Source: a virus
Virus record (IMG/VR): IMGVR_UViG_3300032296_001209
Span: 1-64,000 of that record
Direction: 5' to 3' (one strand)
DNA: 64,000 nucleotides
Shown: one piece after another, positions 1-60,793 of the stretch
How positions within the stretch are numbered: the first letter of the stretch is position 1
How the letters are laid out: each line of letters opens with the position of its first letter
The notes under the pieces: generated by a model
Seen by the model: only the letters and a program-made list of their open reading frames with translations
What the model was told of the DNA's origin: nothing
The model's database searches: none
Made by a program: the position numbers and the translations under genes

Positions 1-183
1 ACTTATGACAATGTAGAATGGGTATTTCAATTCAACGATGATAATCCAATACTAATATCTAAACCAATTGGAGGAGAAAAAGAATTGATTATCAAACTTG
101 ATAATACATCTCATTCAAATATTTTATTTAGTGATGGTAAAGGAAACACATTTAAAATTTTCGCAAGGGAGCAAACAAAATGA
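1..183 (+). CDS. Hypothetical protein, 3' end only (cut by window edge)
   Basis: The frame beginning at base 1 is open to a TGA at 181-183 and encodes the last 60 residues of a protein (TYDNVEWVFQF...FAREQTK). The start lies outside the window. The stop overlaps the next start in an ATGA, the usual arrangement in this gene chain, which supports it as a real gene. The composition suggests a small soluble beta-rich protein. No family was recognised. Confidence 0.7.
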   Translation, partial: TYDNVEWVFQFNDDNPILISKPIGGEKELIIKLDNTSHSNILFSDGKGNTFKIFAREQTK

Positions 184-202
184 CAAACAATAAACAACAA
201 AC
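180..202 (+). repeat. 23-nt direct repeat at gene starts, copy 1
   Basis: Identical to 628-650 and 2895-2917. It covers the first eight codons (MTNNKQQT) of three paralogous genes. Confidence 0.85.
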
Positions 203-452
203 GGCGGTAGAGTGGTTCATTGAAGAACTTGAAGAAAAGGGCAAAGCGTATGAGGAAAACCAAATAGTTAGAACTATCAATATATGTATTGATGTCAGTG
301 ATTATATGGAATTAAAACAACAAGCCAATGAAAGACATAAGCAACAAATTATAAACGCTGTTGATGACCAAAATAATTATGATTCGTGGCCGAGTTCAAT
401 TCCCACATTGGGTGAACGATACTACAATGAAACATACGGAGGTAACAAATGA
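180..452 (+). CDS. Small phage protein of the MTNNKQQT...TYGG family
   Basis: A 90-residue protein beginning MTNNKQQTAVEW and ending ETYGGNK. The same N-terminus and a related C-terminus (aromatic-rich, then TYGG) recur in the genes at 628 and 2895, so these are paralogs. The middle is charged and helical and no catalytic motif is visible. The codons for the C-terminal YGG contain GGAGG, placed to act as a ribosome binding site for the next gene, whose ATG overlaps this stop as ATGA. Function unknown; it is probably an early accessory protein. Confidence 0.8.
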   Translation: MTNNKQQTAVEWFIEELEEKGKAYEENQIVRTINICIDVSDYMELKQQANERHKQQIINAVDDQNNYDSWPSSIPTLGERYYNETYGGNK

Positions 453-631
453 AACTATACACAGAAGAACAAGTTAAACAAATTCTTGATGATTTATTAG
501 ACTATATAAATTCACTGCAAAATAACTATATAGCATTATCAAAAAATGACAAAAAAAAATCAAAAGAAGTGGATGCAATACTTACTGCAACCACATTAAT
601 TAAAATGAGAATTCAATCGTTAAACAAATGA
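449..631 (+). CDS. Hypothetical small protein (60 aa)
   Basis: A short lysine-rich, probably helical protein (MKLYTEEQVKQILDDLLDYI...). It starts inside the preceding gene's stop (ATGA), and its own stop overlaps the next start in the same way, so it is translationally linked to its neighbours. A GGAGG sequence lies about 10 nt before the ATG, inside the previous gene. No family was recognised. Confidence 0.7.
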   Translation: MKLYTEEQVKQILDDLLDYINSLQNNYIALSKNDKKKSKEVDAILTATTLIKMRIQSLNK

Positions 632-650
632 CAAACAATAAACAACAAAC
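628..650 (+). repeat. 23-nt direct repeat at gene starts, copy 2
   Basis: Identical to 180-202. After this copy the gene diverges before a second QQTAIEW motif. Confidence 0.85.
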
Positions 651-906
651 GGAGATTAATGCAGTTGAGTACCTTGGTAAGGTTAATCAATTTGCAAAAG
701 AAAACAACACGGATAAGCCAAGACAACAGACGGCAATTGAATGGTTAGAAGAAGAAATGTTAAAACCCAACTTAAGTATGAAAGAAATACTTGAACAAGC
801 CAAAGAAATGGAAAAAGACCAACACATAAAAAGTTGGGAAACTGGTCTAATGAAAGTTGACTTTAATGAATACTACGAACAAACCTACGGAGGAGTTAAC
901 CAATGA
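628..906 (+). CDS. Small phage protein of the MTNNKQQT...TYGG family
   Basis: A 92-residue paralog of the protein at 180. It begins MTNNKQQT, then has about 25 extra residues, then a second copy of the motif as RQQTAIEWLEEEML. This is followed by an EQAKEMEKDQ helix and a C-terminus YYEQTYGGVNQ. The doubled QQTA(V/I)EW motif suggests an internal N-terminal duplication or fusion. The last codons carry GGAGG upstream of the next ATG. Function unknown. Confidence 0.8.
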   Translation: MTNNKQQTEINAVEYLGKVNQFAKENNTDKPRQQTAIEWLEEEMLKPNLSMKEILEQAKEMEKDQHIKSWETGLMKVDFNEYYEQTYGGVNQ

Positions 907-1145
907 GTAAGTATCAACAACAAATTATTGAAGCCCTAAAAAATGGCGCAAAACTTCAATGTACTGAAGGCACAAATTGGCGTGCTTGGCTAAAATACCC
1001 AAACGGAGAAATTAAATATGTTCGTAGAGATTCTGCCAATAAAGTATGTCAGCAATATTCAGATATATTAATATTTGGTAAATATGAAGGTATTAGTTAT
1101 AAGTTAAAAAATAAAAAAGAAACCTACGGAGGAGGTGAGCAATGA
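903..1145 (+). CDS. Hypothetical protein ending in ETYGG
   Basis: An 80-residue protein (MSKYQQQIIEALKNGAKLQC...). Its C-terminus KKETYGGGEQ shares the TYGG ending with the MTNNKQQT family although the N-terminal part differs. The YGGG codons give GGAGGAGG about 8 nt before the next ATG. The start overlaps the previous stop by 4 nt. No enzymatic motif is visible. Confidence 0.75.
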   Translation: MSKYQQQIIEALKNGAKLQCTEGTNWRAWLKYPNGEIKYVRRDSANKVCQQYSDILIFGKYEGISYKLKNKKETYGGGEQ

Positions 1146-1399
1146 TGTGGATACTTGGAATCTTAGCTGCTGTTATTCTACTTGGATTAAACAAAATTGA
1201 CAATGATGAACGTGATGAGCGTAGTGACTTGTTCCATTTGTTATTATTTGCACTCATGGCTGTAAGTGTAGTAGCAGGTATGTTAGGAATAAAACAAGCT
1301 GGTGTAAAATCAGATAAGCCTATTAAACCTTCTATTGAAATTGTGTGTACAGACGGTAAGTGTGATACTACCTACATCTATAAAAATGTTAAGAAATGA
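1142..1399 (+). CDS. Small membrane protein (85 aa)
   Basis: It has two hydrophobic stretches: residues 3-16 (WILGILAAVILLGL) and about 30-50 (FHLLLFALMAVSVVAGMLGI). They are separated by an acidic, arginine-rich loop (DNDERDERSD) and followed by a polar tail with two cysteines (CTDGKCD). This is a two-pass membrane topology. It lies in the early gene chain with ATGA overlaps on both sides. The host-membrane target or role is unknown. Confidence 0.7.
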   Translation: MMWILGILAAVILLGLNKIDNDERDERSDLFHLLLFALMAVSVVAGMLGIKQAGVKSDKPIKPSIEIVCTDGKCDTTYIYKNVKK

Positions 1400-2380: not shown

Positions 2381-2618
2381 TAAAAAAATAAAAACAGTAA
2401 GTATTTCTCAAAATGCATTAGATAATACATTTGAAGATTTGGACATGTTGAGTAGGTTATTAAATGATATGGTCTCAGATATGCATAACGTTAAAGGTGG
2501 ACAGCAAGTACGCCATGCATACATGCTATATAGAGACTATATATTTAAAATCCAACAAGAACTAAAGAAAGGAATACAAGTAGATGAGCAACAAAAAACA
2601 AAAAACCATGAAAAATAA
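2373..2618 (+). CDS. Hypothetical helical protein (81 aa)
   Basis: MSDKKIKTVSISQNALDNTF... is a mostly helical small protein. An earlier in-frame ATG exists at 2322. The ATG at 2373 is preferred because it gives an 8-nt overlap with the previous stop, as elsewhere in this chain, and avoids a lysine-rich extension. The C-terminus (DEQQKTKNHEK) reads through the start region of the next gene. No domain recognised. Confidence 0.65.
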   Translation: MSDKKIKTVSISQNALDNTFEDLDMLSRLLNDMVSDMHNVKGGQQVRHAYMLYRDYIFKIQQELKKGIQVDEQQKTKNHEK

Positions 2619-2898
2619 ATTAAGACTAGTAGCAATTTTCGCAATTGTAATTCTATTCTCATTTATCCCAGAAACATTCCCAGATTTTTTTGGAGACTGG
2701 GTTTGTCAAGGAGGAAAGTATCAGTATATAGAAAATGGACCAGACATCCAGGAAGGATGTATGTATGGAATTAATGCTAGTAATAGTCATAATCCAACCA
2801 TACACTGGGGCTTCAGACATTGGATGTGGACACTATGTGGTGTATCACTATTCATTTGGAACATAGTAGAGTTAATTGATAAAAAATACAGACTATGA
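2608..2898 (+). CDS. Membrane protein with N-terminal and C-terminal hydrophobic segments
   Basis: From the chosen ATG the protein starts MKNKLRLVAIFAIVILFSFIP, a typical membrane anchor or uncleaved signal. A loop with two cysteines (VCQGG, EGCMYG) follows, then a second hydrophobic segment (WMWTLCGVSLFIWNIVELI). That gives two membrane passes around an exported loop that could hold a disulphide. An alternative ATG at 2584 adds MSNKKQKT, which resembles the MTNNKQQT start of nearby genes. Function unknown. Confidence 0.65.
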   Translation: MKNKLRLVAIFAIVILFSFIPETFPDFFGDWVCQGGKYQYIENGPDIQEGCMYGINASNSHNPTIHWGFRHWMWTLCGVSLFIWNIVELIDKKYRL

Positions 2899-2917
2899 CA
2901 AACAATAAACAACAAAC
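2895..2917 (+). repeat. 23-nt direct repeat at gene starts, copy 3
   Basis: Identical to 180-202. A degenerate fourth copy is at 2584, inside the gene before it. Confidence 0.85.
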
Positions 2918-3113
2918 AGCAGTGGAGTGGTTATTTGAACAGATGTTTGACCCAACTTATCCTGCTGGAGAACAAATGGAATGGCTTGAAGAAGCTAAAG
3001 AAATGCAGAAGGCACAACATAAATCAACTTATTTAGCCCAAATGAATCGCAATAACTTCAATTTTGAACATTACTTTTTTAAAACATATGAACACGAAGA
3101 AGATGAGCAATGA
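2895..3113 (+). CDS. Small phage protein of the MTNNKQQT family
   Basis: A 72-residue paralog of the proteins at 180 and 628: MTNNKQQTAVEWLFEQMF, then WLEEAKEMQKAQH, then an aromatic C-terminus FEHYFFKTYEHEEDEQ. The first 23 nt are identical to those at 180 and 628. The TYGG ending is changed to TYEH, so the embedded GGAGG seen in the other members is absent here. ATGA overlaps link it to both neighbours. Confidence 0.8.
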   Translation: MTNNKQQTAVEWLFEQMFDPTYPAGEQMEWLEEAKEMQKAQHKSTYLAQMNRNNFNFEHYFFKTYEHEEDEQ

Positions 3114-57169: not shown

Positions 57170-60100
57170 TTAAGAGCCCTTAGTTTTCCTTCTGTTAGAC
57201 ATTGCAGATTGTGCTGCTAAAATATTACCACGCTCATCTACATCTATATCTCCGAATATACTTTTAACCATAGCAGCCTGAACTGTAGGATTCTTAGTAT
57301 CAATTCCCATTTCAGTTAAGTATTTTGCTAAATCTTTACCCTTTTGTCCAGGTGGAAGTTTTTGAGCTGGTGTATAATAAGTTTTAAGAGCAGCAGGATC
57401 AACAAAGAAATTAGGATATAAACTGTTCATTTGATCTGTTATAAATCTATTTTCTAATGCAGCATTTACATAATCAACAGCCTCTCTTCTACCAGCTCTT
57501 CTAGCATTATCATATTGCTGATTAGTAGCAACAGTCTTATCATAGAAGTCATTAGCAGCTAATTGATTTCTAAAGTTAGCTTCATTGATTAATTGCTTAT
57601 TAGCTTGCTCAAACTGATTAGCTACACCAACATTTAAGTTATTATATCTACCTAAGATATTAGCAGCATTAGCTAAACCTTTACCTTGTACTTCAGAGAA
57701 CCTTGTATTGAAAGCTTGTGGTCCAGTAAACTGAGCCAAGTTTGCACCAGCAATATTAGCCATCTCAGCATTTGCTGCTAACTCTCTATTAGGATCATAG
57801 AATGTAGGCTCCATAGGCTCTGCAGTAAACTGTGCCATTCTAGGATAGTATCTATTGATACTAGCTAAGTCACCAACAGCAGCTGCAGTATTTAATACAT
57901 CTTGAGGATAGAAACCAATAGGTGGTCTTTTTGGAACCGGTGGAGGATTTAATTGTCCTGGCTCAAGAGGATCTCTTGGGGTATTTGGAGTATTTGGAGT
58001 CTCTGGAGTTTCATCATCAAAATAGTTTGGAACAGAATAAGTTACTCTACCAAATTTTACATCTCTTTGATAAGGATCTTTACTATTAGGATCTTTTGGT
58101 TTAAAGTAAGCTTTACCTGTGGCTTTAATAGATTTTTCATTAACCTTATCTTGGAACCATCCTGCAGCTTTATTACCAACAGTTTCTAAATTTTTTAATC
58201 TATCTGGATCATTGTCTACAGTTTCTAAATCTTGTTTAAATTTATTAAATCCTCCTGGATATTCTTTTTCAATCCAATCACCATGTCTGTCTTGAAAATC
58301 TTTCCACTCTGCAGAACTTAAAGTTCCTTCAGTTCTAGCTGAAGCTTCAGCACTTGGTAAATAAATACCTGTATTTTTTACACGAGGTTGATTAGCAAAC
58401 TGTCCTGCAGGAATTCTGGTATAGATAACTTTATTACCTTTTCTAACTCTCTCATCAATTGCAGTTCCAATTTCTGGAGAACCATATTGTGTAAACTTTG
58501 TATCTTCTGCGGTTCTGACTTTTCTAGTTCCTGGTATTTCATTACCTGCCTCATCAACAAGATATTTCTGATCACCTTCATAATACAAATAAGCTTTCTT
58601 TCCTGTTGTTTTACTAGTTCTTTCTTCAATAAAAACTTTAGCATATGGATTTGGCTTTGCTACTTCTTGAGGAGTTTCTCCTGCAGTTTGATACTGTGGA
58701 ATATTACCACCATATTCATAATCGCCCCATTCTGAACTTACAGGATCTGTACTGGGTTTAGCTACATTAACTTTAGGCTTTGGTGTTTGAGCAGCAGGTT
58801 TAACTTTTTGTGTTACAACCGGTTGTTTAACTGGTGCTGGGGCAATGGTATCTACTTGTTGTTTAGCAAACGGTTGATTAAGAGTATTTAAAAACTCTTG
58901 TCTTCCTTTATCTACTCTTTCAATGTAAGATGGAATACCACTAGATTTAATAACTAAATCAATTGCAGCTTCTGGATTATTAAATGTATAATCTTGAAAT
59001 CTCTGAGGAGACATATTTTGTGAAGATACGCTATATGGTGCAGCTTGCATATTAGCTGTAGGTTTAACTTGCCATCTACCATCTTTATATTCTATATCCT
59101 GAGCTGTATATGGTGTTGTTCTATTAACTGGAACATTTGGTGTTGCTCTCTGAGTAATTCCAGTATTTGGATTACCAGCGTAGTAATTTCTTTTTAATTT
59201 TTCAAACTCTGCCATACCATCCATTCTACTAATACCATTTTGAGCTTTAGGAATACCACCATACATAGCCATTGCCATACCTTCTTCAGGAGATGGTGGT
59301 AAGAACTGTGCTGGATCTAATCCTACTTTATCCATATATGGTACAGCAATTTGTGGAACACCTTGAGGAAATCCTTTCTGTGATTCTTGTACAAGAGCTA
59401 ACTTACCTAAGTTAGAGATATAGTTATCAGCCATCATAACAGCTGTCTTTTTACGTAAGGGATCGGTCTCAGAATATAAGCCTTCACGCAACTCTTTATT
59501 ATTAAGATCAAACTTCTTAGAAATTTTAGCTGGAGTATAACCACCTTTCTTAGCAGCAAACCCAAAAGATTCTAATATAGCGGGATCTTTAATCTTCATA
59601 GCCTTTGTATCTGAATAAATAAAACTATCTGGAGTAGCTTTATCTCCAGCTAATGGAGTACCACCTTCTGAGTGACGCTTACCACCAATCTTAAAGAACT
59701 CAGGAATTGTACTATTAGTACCTTTACGTACTAGAGTCTCTCCCTTCTCTGCTTCTAATACAGAGATAGATCTAGGATCCGGTCCTAATGTCTGACCATA
59801 TTGTTCTTGTGGTTCACCTTCAGTAGCACCATTAAACATGTTCATCATGTAAGCTGAGTTACCATATAACTGATTAACAGCTTTAGCATCTTGAGTACCA
59901 CCATATCCAGCTTGTGGTAAACTTGTAATTTTTACTTTTCTTTTCATTTCTCCACCCATTTGGGCCTCTTTATTATAACCTTTAATTATAGCTTCATCCG
60001 GTCTAAAGTCTAAACCAAAACCAGGAGTATTAGTTAAGTAATCTCCTCTATTACCAGAGTAATCTTCCGGTCTAACATTATATAAGTTATCAGCTAAAAA

Positions 60101-60793
60101 CTGATCTCTAAAATCTTCTTCAGTACTTCTATCTTGAATCTTTCTAGCAACAGAACTAAATATATCTGTACCAGCTAATAACATAGGACCCACATAAGGA
60201 TTACCTTTTTGATTAGGTTTTTTTGTTTTAATATCGCCAAATGGTTCTAAGCCCATTAACTTCCTAGTATCTTCAGGAATCTGATCAGTATAAGATTTTC
60301 TAATAGCATCCTTTGTACTAAGAATGCCAGACTCTAATTTAGTATTTCTAGGATATAAGCTTAAAGAACGTCCTCCCATAGATGTAGGCAACTTACTATA
60401 ATCAATAGGAGTTGTATTTTCAAAAAATAAAGGTTCTCCAACACTAGTTTTTGGTGCAAAAGATGAAGGGCGTAGACCTTGAATGCTTGGCATACCTACA
60501 TTAAAAGATCCTGTAGTATTAGGATCTCCTTGATATACATCAGCATAAAATGAAGGATTAGTATTTAAATTAAACGCAGGCATTCCTACATTAAAGTTAC
60601 CACTAGTATTATTAATACCAGAATAAACATCTGCAGAAATTGCTCCAGAGGTTGGTGCACTTCCAAAAGACGGATAGGGATTATTTTTTTGCCAGGTGGC
60701 TAAATAATCTGGACGTAGCACATTAGGTGCAGGTAAGTTATTAAATCCGTATTGAGCTTTAGGTAAGCTCTTAACCCTTACTTTCTTTTTCAT
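57170..60793 (-). CDS. Giant virion-associated protein with internal repeats (1207 aa)
   Basis: It starts MKKKVRVKSLPKAQYGFNNL, and the same kind of segment occurs again near residue 285 (MKRKVKITSLPQAGYGG), as if two units were joined. Early residues carry two copies of an ADVYxG...GxFNVGMP repeat. A crAss-like core follows (ISVLEAEKGETLVRKGTNST, FFKIGGKRHSEGGTPLAGDK). The C-terminal half is proline- and glutamine-rich. No enzyme motif seen. A virion or packaging-related role is inferred from position. Confidence 0.78.
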   Translation of the reverse strand: MKKKVRVKSLPKAQYGFNNLPAPNVLRPDYLATWQKNNPYPSFGSAPTSGAISADVYSGINNTSGNFNVGMPAFNLNTNPSFYADVYQGDPNTTGSFNVGMPSIQGLRPSSFAPKTSVGEPLFFENTTPIDYSKLPTSMGGRSLSLYPRNTKLESGILSTKDAIRKSYTDQIPEDTRKLMGLEPFGDIKTKKPNQKGNPYVGPMLLAGTDIFSSVARKIQDRSTEEDFRDQFLADNLYNVRPEDYSGNRGDYLTNTPGFGLDFRPDEAIIKGYNKEAQMGGEMKRKVKITSLPQAGYGGTQDAKAVNQLYGNSAYMMNMFNGATEGEPQEQYGQTLGPDPRSISVLEAEKGETLVRKGTNSTIPEFFKIGGKRHSEGGTPLAGDKATPDSFIYSDTKAMKIKDPAILESFGFAAKKGGYTPAKISKKFDLNNKELREGLYSETDPLRKKTAVMMADNYISNLGKLALVQESQKGFPQGVPQIAVPYMDKVGLDPAQFLPPSPEEGMAMAMYGGIPKAQNGISRMDGMAEFEKLKRNYYAGNPNTGITQRATPNVPVNRTTPYTAQDIEYKDGRWQVKPTANMQAAPYSVSSQNMSPQRFQDYTFNNPEAAIDLVIKSSGIPSYIERVDKGRQEFLNTLNQPFAKQQVDTIAPAPVKQPVVTQKVKPAAQTPKPKVNVAKPSTDPVSSEWGDYEYGGNIPQYQTAGETPQEVAKPNPYAKVFIEERTSKTTGKKAYLYYEGDQKYLVDEAGNEIPGTRKVRTAEDTKFTQYGSPEIGTAIDERVRKGNKVIYTRIPAGQFANQPRVKNTGIYLPSAEASARTEGTLSSAEWKDFQDRHGDWIEKEYPGGFNKFKQDLETVDNDPDRLKNLETVGNKAAGWFQDKVNEKSIKATGKAYFKPKDPNSKDPYQRDVKFGRVTYSVPNYFDDETPETPNTPNTPRDPLEPGQLNPPPVPKRPPIGFYPQDVLNTAAAVGDLASINRYYPRMAQFTAEPMEPTFYDPNRELAANAEMANIAGANLAQFTGPQAFNTRFSEVQGKGLANAANILGRYNNLNVGVANQFEQANKQLINEANFRNQLAANDFYDKTVATNQQYDNARRAGRREAVDYVNAALENRFITDQMNSLYPNFFVDPAALKTYYTPAQKLPPGQKGKDLAKYLTEMGIDTKNPTVQAAMVKSIFGDIDVDERGNILAAQSAMSNRRKTKGS

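Follow-up and report, generated by a model that had tools for sequence, protein, structure and literature searches.

Glycine-glycine tails of small phage proteins as a likely in-frame reading of a portable ribosome-binding site for the overlapping next gene

The window analysed here, that is the whole 64,000-nucleotide stretch taken from the 97,353-base virus record IMGVR_UViG_3300032296_001209, begins with a series of short genes, three of which (starting at 180, 628 and 903) end in TYGG, as the original prediction had stated, with the codons TACGGAGG. The genes and Shine-Dalgarno (SD) sites are as follows.

180..452, + strand: gene for a small protein of the KQTAVEW...YYNETY family, with the tail TYGGNK (ACATACGGAGGTAACAAATGA); the SD of gene 449 lies in its final codons.
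438..443, + strand: SD GGAGGT, spelled by the codons GGA GGT, with ATG 449 lying 6 nt beyond the last G of GGAGG; pairing -10.9 kcal/mol.
449..631, + strand: gene behind the first SD, with its own tail SLNK without GG, leading to the SD-less start 628.
628..906, + strand: gene for a second family member, with the tail TYGGVNQ (ACCTACGGAGGAGTTAACCAATGA).
889..893, + strand: SD GGAGG, 9 nt from ATG 903; pairing -9.5 kcal/mol.
903..1145, + strand: gene for an 80-aa protein with the tail TYGGGEQ (ACCTACGGAGGAGGTGAGCAATGA).
1128..1138, + strand: extended SD GGAGGAGGTGA, its second GGAGG 6 nt from ATG 1142; pairing -17.5 kcal/mol.
1142..1399, + strand: gene behind the third SD, the strongest of the three.
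2895..3113, + strand: gene for a family paralogue without an SD, with the tail TYEHEEDEQ.

In all three cases the next ATG (449, 903 and 1142) overlaps the stop as ATGA, as first described. The genes are not strictly consecutive as had been supposed, with 449-631 sitting between 180 and 628, and the 8-11 nt originally given between GGAGG and ATG has to be corrected to 6, 9 and 6 (or 9) nt when counted from the last G, or to 11, 14 and 11 (or 14) nt from the first. The intervening gene 449-631 serves as an internal control: its GG-less SLNK tail leads to a start that pairs with the 16S tail at only -1.7 kcal/mol, and hence has no SD, versus -10.9, -9.5 and -17.5 kcal/mol at 449, 903 and 1142. 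The paralogue 2895-3113 ends in TYEH(EEDEQ) without GGAGG, in agreement with the original prediction; its tail DNA reads GAAGAAGATGAGCAATGA where the viral loci L018 and L100 have GGAGGAGATGAGCAATGA, and gene 3110 overlaps it by ATGA, again without GGAGG. The proteins of 903-1145 and 628-906 gave no BLASTP match to each other and have the tail alone in common. Pairing was computed against a 16S tail sequence that we take to be representative and that may not be the host's own, and the energies come from RNAduplex rather than from the free_scan program of PMC9976891.

Across the whole record, mechanical lists of ORFs of at least 50 aa contain 85 on the + strand, of which three have GGAGG 4-20 nt upstream, exactly those following TYGG, and 74 on the - strand, of which two have GGAGG upstream. 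About 0.23 GGAGG-led + strand starts would be expected (Poisson P 0.0017, assuming 12 placements per start and no codon model), and GGAGG at the three TYGG junctions thus exceeds chance. Two other starts pair well without any GGAGG, namely 2584 at -10.3 kcal/mol (AGAAAGGA, window 2562-2586) and 180 at -8.1 kcal/mol (AAGGGAG, window 158-182). These values match or approach that of start 903 and count against an SD reading.

Genes 180, 628 and 2895 encode members of a large small-protein family of the layout KQTAVEW ... AKEMEKEQI ... YYNETY, for which Pfam and PHROG gave no convincing match, the weak hits concerning single members only. Its conserved end, strongly kept as protein, is YYNET[Y/F], after which KSE, K, ESNT and other endings occur too. 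When ORFs were selected by the N-terminal motif and hence blind to the tail (identical proteins merged; 5 of 127 rows omitted, with the ORF near a contig end), 9 of 122 distinct ORFs ended in YGG and 2 more in GG among the matches listed; in 10 of the 11 a GGAGG lies a short way upstream of an ATG. The exception, L195, spells its YGG tail GGC GGA, lacks GGAGG and speaks against an SD reading. With so few YGG ends, YGG is not a family-wide trait, whereas YYNET[YF] is. The TY belongs to the protein family, and only the GG and what follows it are the SD site, such that the original proposal of a peptide motif kept for its ribosome site holds from GG onward and fails for TY.

A second tail type, NETFKSE with TTTAAATCAGAATAAgATG, is found in L134, L154, L203 and about 100 other loci. 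GG and KSE tails share no fetched stretch (102 and 103 loci), and the median GC of NETFKSE and GG loci differs (0.329 vs. 0.383); given the lack of a common locus and the difference in GC, tail type may track the host. Searches for named relatives by tblastn gave no phage or plasmid match for 628-906 or for the family member of L129, and no named relative for the 1207-aa protein 57170-60793 of the window. Vibrio matches at E 6 and eight short DNA matches at E 0.3-4 were set aside, as were 12 records matching window positions 1-1200 (E 0.1-0.4, 2-4% of the query covered).

Counts drawn from the scans of the viral collection are samples limited to the matches listed; either the head motif or these tails served to pick the loci behind the junction, tail and pairing counts, and near-identical copies were merged while related copies were kept separate. 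An exact-pattern scan for YYNETYGG returned at least 120 stretches, in which the first Gly codon is GGA in 129 of the 130 matches listed, the remaining match not being C-terminal. Scanning for the other three first-Gly codons yielded four stretches, comprising two copies of one unrelated protein, L126 (GGG GGT) and L125 (a run of six G, its frame running on into the next gene); the GGG of L126 and L125 could still pair by G:U. Synonymous spellings that destroy GGAGG, which the original prediction had named as evidence against itself, are thus absent as GGT or GGC at the first Gly among those exact YYNETYGG tails of the family that the viral collection yielded. Chance occurrences of YYNETYGG in four unrelated cellular genomes use GGC or GGT, and the sole real member among cellular genomes, in a Flavobacteriaceae MAG, has GGA GGT. 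GGA is the Gly codon in 112 of 113 [YF]GG tails vs. 12 of 16 [YF]G tails without a second Gly (Fisher P 8e-4); that it is the commonest codon even in the latter counts against an SD reading. Within the gene bodies of the GG set GGA makes up only 0.36 of 254 Gly codons, and the Thr codon two codons before GG varies (ACA 61, ACC 32, ACT 23, ACG 2; n=118, including L132, a chance match in a non-phage genome).

Codon invariance of this kind extends beyond the glycines. In YYNETY, Tyr is TAC at 0.90-0.94 vs. 0.26 in the gene bodies of the GG set and 0.13 in those of the KSE set, and Asn in the GG set is AAC at 0.97 vs. 0.27; AKEMEKEQI is likewise frozen (GCC, GAG, CAG), with variable spacers between it and YYNETY (e.g., L038, L085, L280). 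In the KSE set the head KQTAVEW is for the most part frozen too (Thr, Ala, Val), and in the GG set it varies at the codons for Thr, Val and Glu; the KSE tails, which have no SD, are equally frozen, with TTT, AAA and TCA in 115-116 of 116. Recombination anchors or a recent expansion may lie behind the freezing of the family motifs. Because AKEMEKEQI and YYNETY are frozen, GGA invariance alone proves little, as recent spread could have frozen GGA too; once this was evident its use as sufficient proof was dropped, and the case rests instead on spacing, portability and the contrast between SD and mock windows.

As to spacing, in 104 of the 113 [Y/F]GG tails a GGAGG precedes an ATG that opens an ORF of 20 aa or more (or one open to the contig end), at a gap of 5 nt (26), 6 nt (71), 9 nt (6) or 19 nt (1), while the position of the stop relative to that ATG ranges from 9 nt upstream to 17 nt downstream. 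The start-stop offset is -1, i.e., the ATGA overlap, in 72 of the 104, and the 113 tails represent 33 different tail peptides. So few tails, 9 of 113, lack the GGAGG and ATG-led ORF (L126 among them, with an ORF present and GGGGG) that conservation of YGG where no gene follows, the other observation that was to speak against the original prediction, can hardly be assessed. Under a stricter definition, which asks for an ORF of 35 aa or more within 30 nt, a following gene is missing from 11 of 113 GG, 17 of 117 KSE and 14 of 72 other tails, in a set whose regular expression misses further tails, that of L195 included; the rates being similar, a next gene by itself does not distinguish the GG tails, which again counts against an SD reading.

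What does distinguish them is the junction. GGAGG marks 76 of 80 YGG, 0 of 116 KSE and 72 of 2269 others among 2465 distinct junctions of the fetched loci. The four YGG junctions without it are L126 (GGGGG) and L057, L118 and L121, for which the script had picked a later ATG. In the window and at the family junctions alike, the SD reads as complementary to the 16S tail at normal spacing. Median pairing is -14.9 kcal/mol at YGG, -1.5 at KSE and -2.0 at other junctions, and 57.5% of the 80 YGG junctions vs. 1.2% of the 2269 others reach -13 kcal/mol or lower. YGG starts mostly lack A-3 and A-6 (16%/11% vs. 55%/54% at others) and therefore differ in start type as a whole. KSE-tail starts have A at -3, -6, -12 and -13 in 95-99%, and A at such positions is reported to favour translation in F. 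johnsoniae, in the portions of PMC6847099 and PMC9976891 available to us. The KSE tail is thus an ideal SD-less Bacteroidota start, and GG and KSE tails both look like start-site modules.

The wider background of these phages sets the strong sites apart. Weak SDs (-3 kcal/mol or lower) are fewer at starts than in a mock window, at 223 vs. 375 of 637 in GG loci and 196 vs. 418 of 757 in KSE loci, whereas strong ones outside YGG tails exceed the mock in GG loci (42 vs. 10 of 637 at -10 or lower; 21 vs. 0 at -13 or lower) and do not do so appreciably in KSE loci (14 vs. 19 of 757; 2 vs. 1). Like Bacteroidota, these phages are short of weak SDs, and a separate strong class exists alongside. The MAG bearing the L129 member behaves likewise, with starts SD-poorer than mock (54 vs. 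69 of 119 at -3) and rpsU pairing at -23.8. According to the sections of McNutt et al. (PMC9976891) consulted, rpsU pairs at -14 to -21 in Flavobacteriales, SD matches there are fewer than in mock windows, and SD-dependent control seems to be confined to rpsU; GFP in wild-type F. johnsoniae was somewhat lower, not higher, with a strong SD, and bS21 mutants gave more strong-SD GFP than wild type. For the host of the window's virus there are indirect pointers towards Bacteroidota, namely the Flavobacteriaceae MAG with a family member, the depletion of weak SDs and a structural protein with matches in 39 phage records; 36 of these records are of Flavobacterium or Cellulophaga, although a Leptolyngbya phage (first) and a gut crAss-like phage rank at the top. 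bS21 (PF01165) is absent from the window's own record, which may be a fragment, and was found in 2 of the 50 tail-bearing records checked out of 120 (L009, 294,914 bases; L116, 232,874 bases) and in 0 of 50 KSE records, such that phage-encoded bS21 as the cause was rejected for most.

The element is not tied to the family. The 72 GGAGG junctions outside YGG and KSE tails place it in the Gly-Gly frame in 32 cases, in the second frame in 32 and in the third in 8, with 12 of the second-frame cases contributed by one recurrent gene pair. In that pair (L141, L147, L182, L203 and 8 more loci) the upstream protein ends in KEQEAQL or similar and the next begins MKFRASQLG or similar, the GGAGG lying in CAG GAG GCA at a gap of 7. 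Many of the Gly-Gly-frame cases are other proteins ending in KGGNK, QGGDK or NGGNK with the identical GGAGGT..ATG, and a different protein in L364 ends in NKGGEQ. The core GGAGGTRASMA-ATG occurs at 70 junctions, in 15 of which the upstream protein is outside the family cluster, and the 148 SD junctions together bring 48 upstream clusters next to 71 downstream clusters in 89 combinations.

Gene 903-1145 further recurs as a cassette in three more viral contigs, with 93-98% of nucleotides identical (whole in L364:2001-2243, its 5' part in L365:2001-2172 and its 3' part in L366:1-114), with three upstream and three downstream genes seen as its differing neighbours. It is bounded by a 24-nt imperfect direct repeat, 21 of 24 positions being identical.

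883..906, + strand: left repeat copy, made up of the TYGG tail, SD and ATGA; identity to L364 and L365 becomes continuous inside it.
1122..1145, + strand: right repeat copy; identity to L364 and L366 stops at its ATGA.

Homology-block ends cluster at start codons generally, with or without an SD. With blocks restricted to 150 nt or more and 88% identity or more, ends vs. spans number 115 to 80 at SD junctions and 938 to 1338 at others (odds ratio 2.05, the blocks not being independent). RBS repeats as the sole recombination joints are unsupported, as block ends are common at SD-less starts too; with an only about twofold enrichment among non-independent blocks, the RBS as a joint is a minor claim.

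In light of these results, we consider it very likely that the tail residues GG(N/D/G..)(K/Q) are the in-frame reading of a portable RBS for the next, overlapping gene. The protein itself would stop at about YYNET[Y/F], and from GG onward the tail would be the reading of an RBS that usually takes the form GGAGGT(A/G)A(C/G)(A/C)A-ATGA. Pairing between SD and 16S tail may hold a ribosome that has just finished the first gene at ATGA, or a newly arriving 30S subunit, which then starts the next gene; in the likely Bacteroidota hosts the users of the site may be ribosomes with a free anti-SD (e.g., short of bS21), as for the host rpsU mRNA. The observations comprise the positions of the sites, the spacing fixed to the ATG, the unrelated proteins sharing the element, the discrete strong class in phages poor in weak SDs and the cassette lying between two copies; base-pairing, termination-reinitiation at ATGA and use by bS21-poor ribosomes are what we infer. 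The core idea of the original prediction is thereby supported, in a setting more interesting than it had proposed.

Three other readings have to be weighed against this evidence. Recent recombination among small-gene cassettes could have frozen the DNA of the 3' ends and carried GGAGG along without its being an SD, in line with the codon freezing of AKEMEKEQI, YYNETY and the SD-less KSE tails, the frequent ending of homology blocks at starts and the presence of the 903-1145 cassette in three other contigs. We judge this unlikely: the Thr codon near GG and the head codons of the GG set vary, the gap is constant to the ATG and not to the stop, the element is common to unrelated tails and different next genes, strong SDs exceed the mock window, and the frozen KSE tail itself looks like a start-site module. 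That TYGG is instead a functional C-terminal peptide, i.e., a sorting, degradation or binding signal whose match at the DNA level reflects codon bias, is highly improbable, strongly kept as the protein end YYNET[YF] may be: YGG closes a small minority of the head-selected ORFs among the matches listed, GG closes unrelated proteins with identical DNA, and GGA accounts for a minority of the Gly codons in the gene bodies of the GG set, with chance cellular YYNETYGG using GGC or GGT.

A third reading accepts the site and inverts its effect, with GGAGG damping the second gene by displacing the favourable A-rich leader for SD-blind Bacteroidota ribosomes. The scarcity of A-3 and A-6 at YGG starts agrees with it, as does the somewhat lower GFP from a strong SD in wild-type F. 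johnsoniae in the part of PMC9976891 cited above; damping would, however, make the exact gap needless, and the strong class persists with extended pairing and an unvarying gap despite the depletion of weak SDs, so that we regard it as rather unlikely. Going beyond the portable RBS itself, we tentatively raise, as possible and short of probable, a two-class translation code of Bacteroidota phages in which ordinary starts are A-rich and SD-less and exchangeable small genes with strong SDs, marked by GG scars, are read by bS21-poor ribosomes, such that the phage couples these genes to the ribosome state of infection and the RBS repeats act as exchange joints.

Among the matches listed, our literature search found no description of SD cassettes in Bacteroidota phages, and a search for the tail peptide strings found no paper. 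As the likely hosts seldom use SD sites, tails written by an SD are odd, and they go against the simple expectation, drawn from the parts of PMC9976891 at hand, that Bacteroidota phages would have no use for SDs. A recurrent C-terminal peptide of environmental phages would be an RNA signal read out rather than a protein function, and if the strong-SD class is truly read, phage reporters could offer a simple handle on specialised Bacteroidota ribosomes. Among cultured phages, a family member occurs in the Flavobacterium phages elemo, whose host is Flavobacterium sp. BAL314 (39% identity, E 2e-3); its tail, unlike those described here, is YYNEKFKK without an SD (two of 68 records). With the bS21-encoding Bacteroidetes phages, as far as the available text of PMC9723584 goes, there is in common a suspected adaptation to the unusual Bacteroidota 30S, whereas here bS21 is present in few tail-bearing records and not in that of the window. 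The strong-SD autoregulation of rpsU, as presented in the part of PMC9976891 used here, is alike in exceptional SD strength on an SD-poor background, with one window site at -17.5 kcal/mol and rpsU of the L129 MAG at -23.8; it differs in that ours are phage genes, polycistronic and overlapping by ATGA, with many pairings weaker (-9 to -11). Translational coupling through an SD in the end of the upstream gene, in the passages of PMC12548453 seen, shares the ATGA overlap, the SD and the site-bearing codons; what sets the present case apart is a portable site that marks unrelated proteins with one and the same peptide scar, in phages otherwise depleted of weak SDs.
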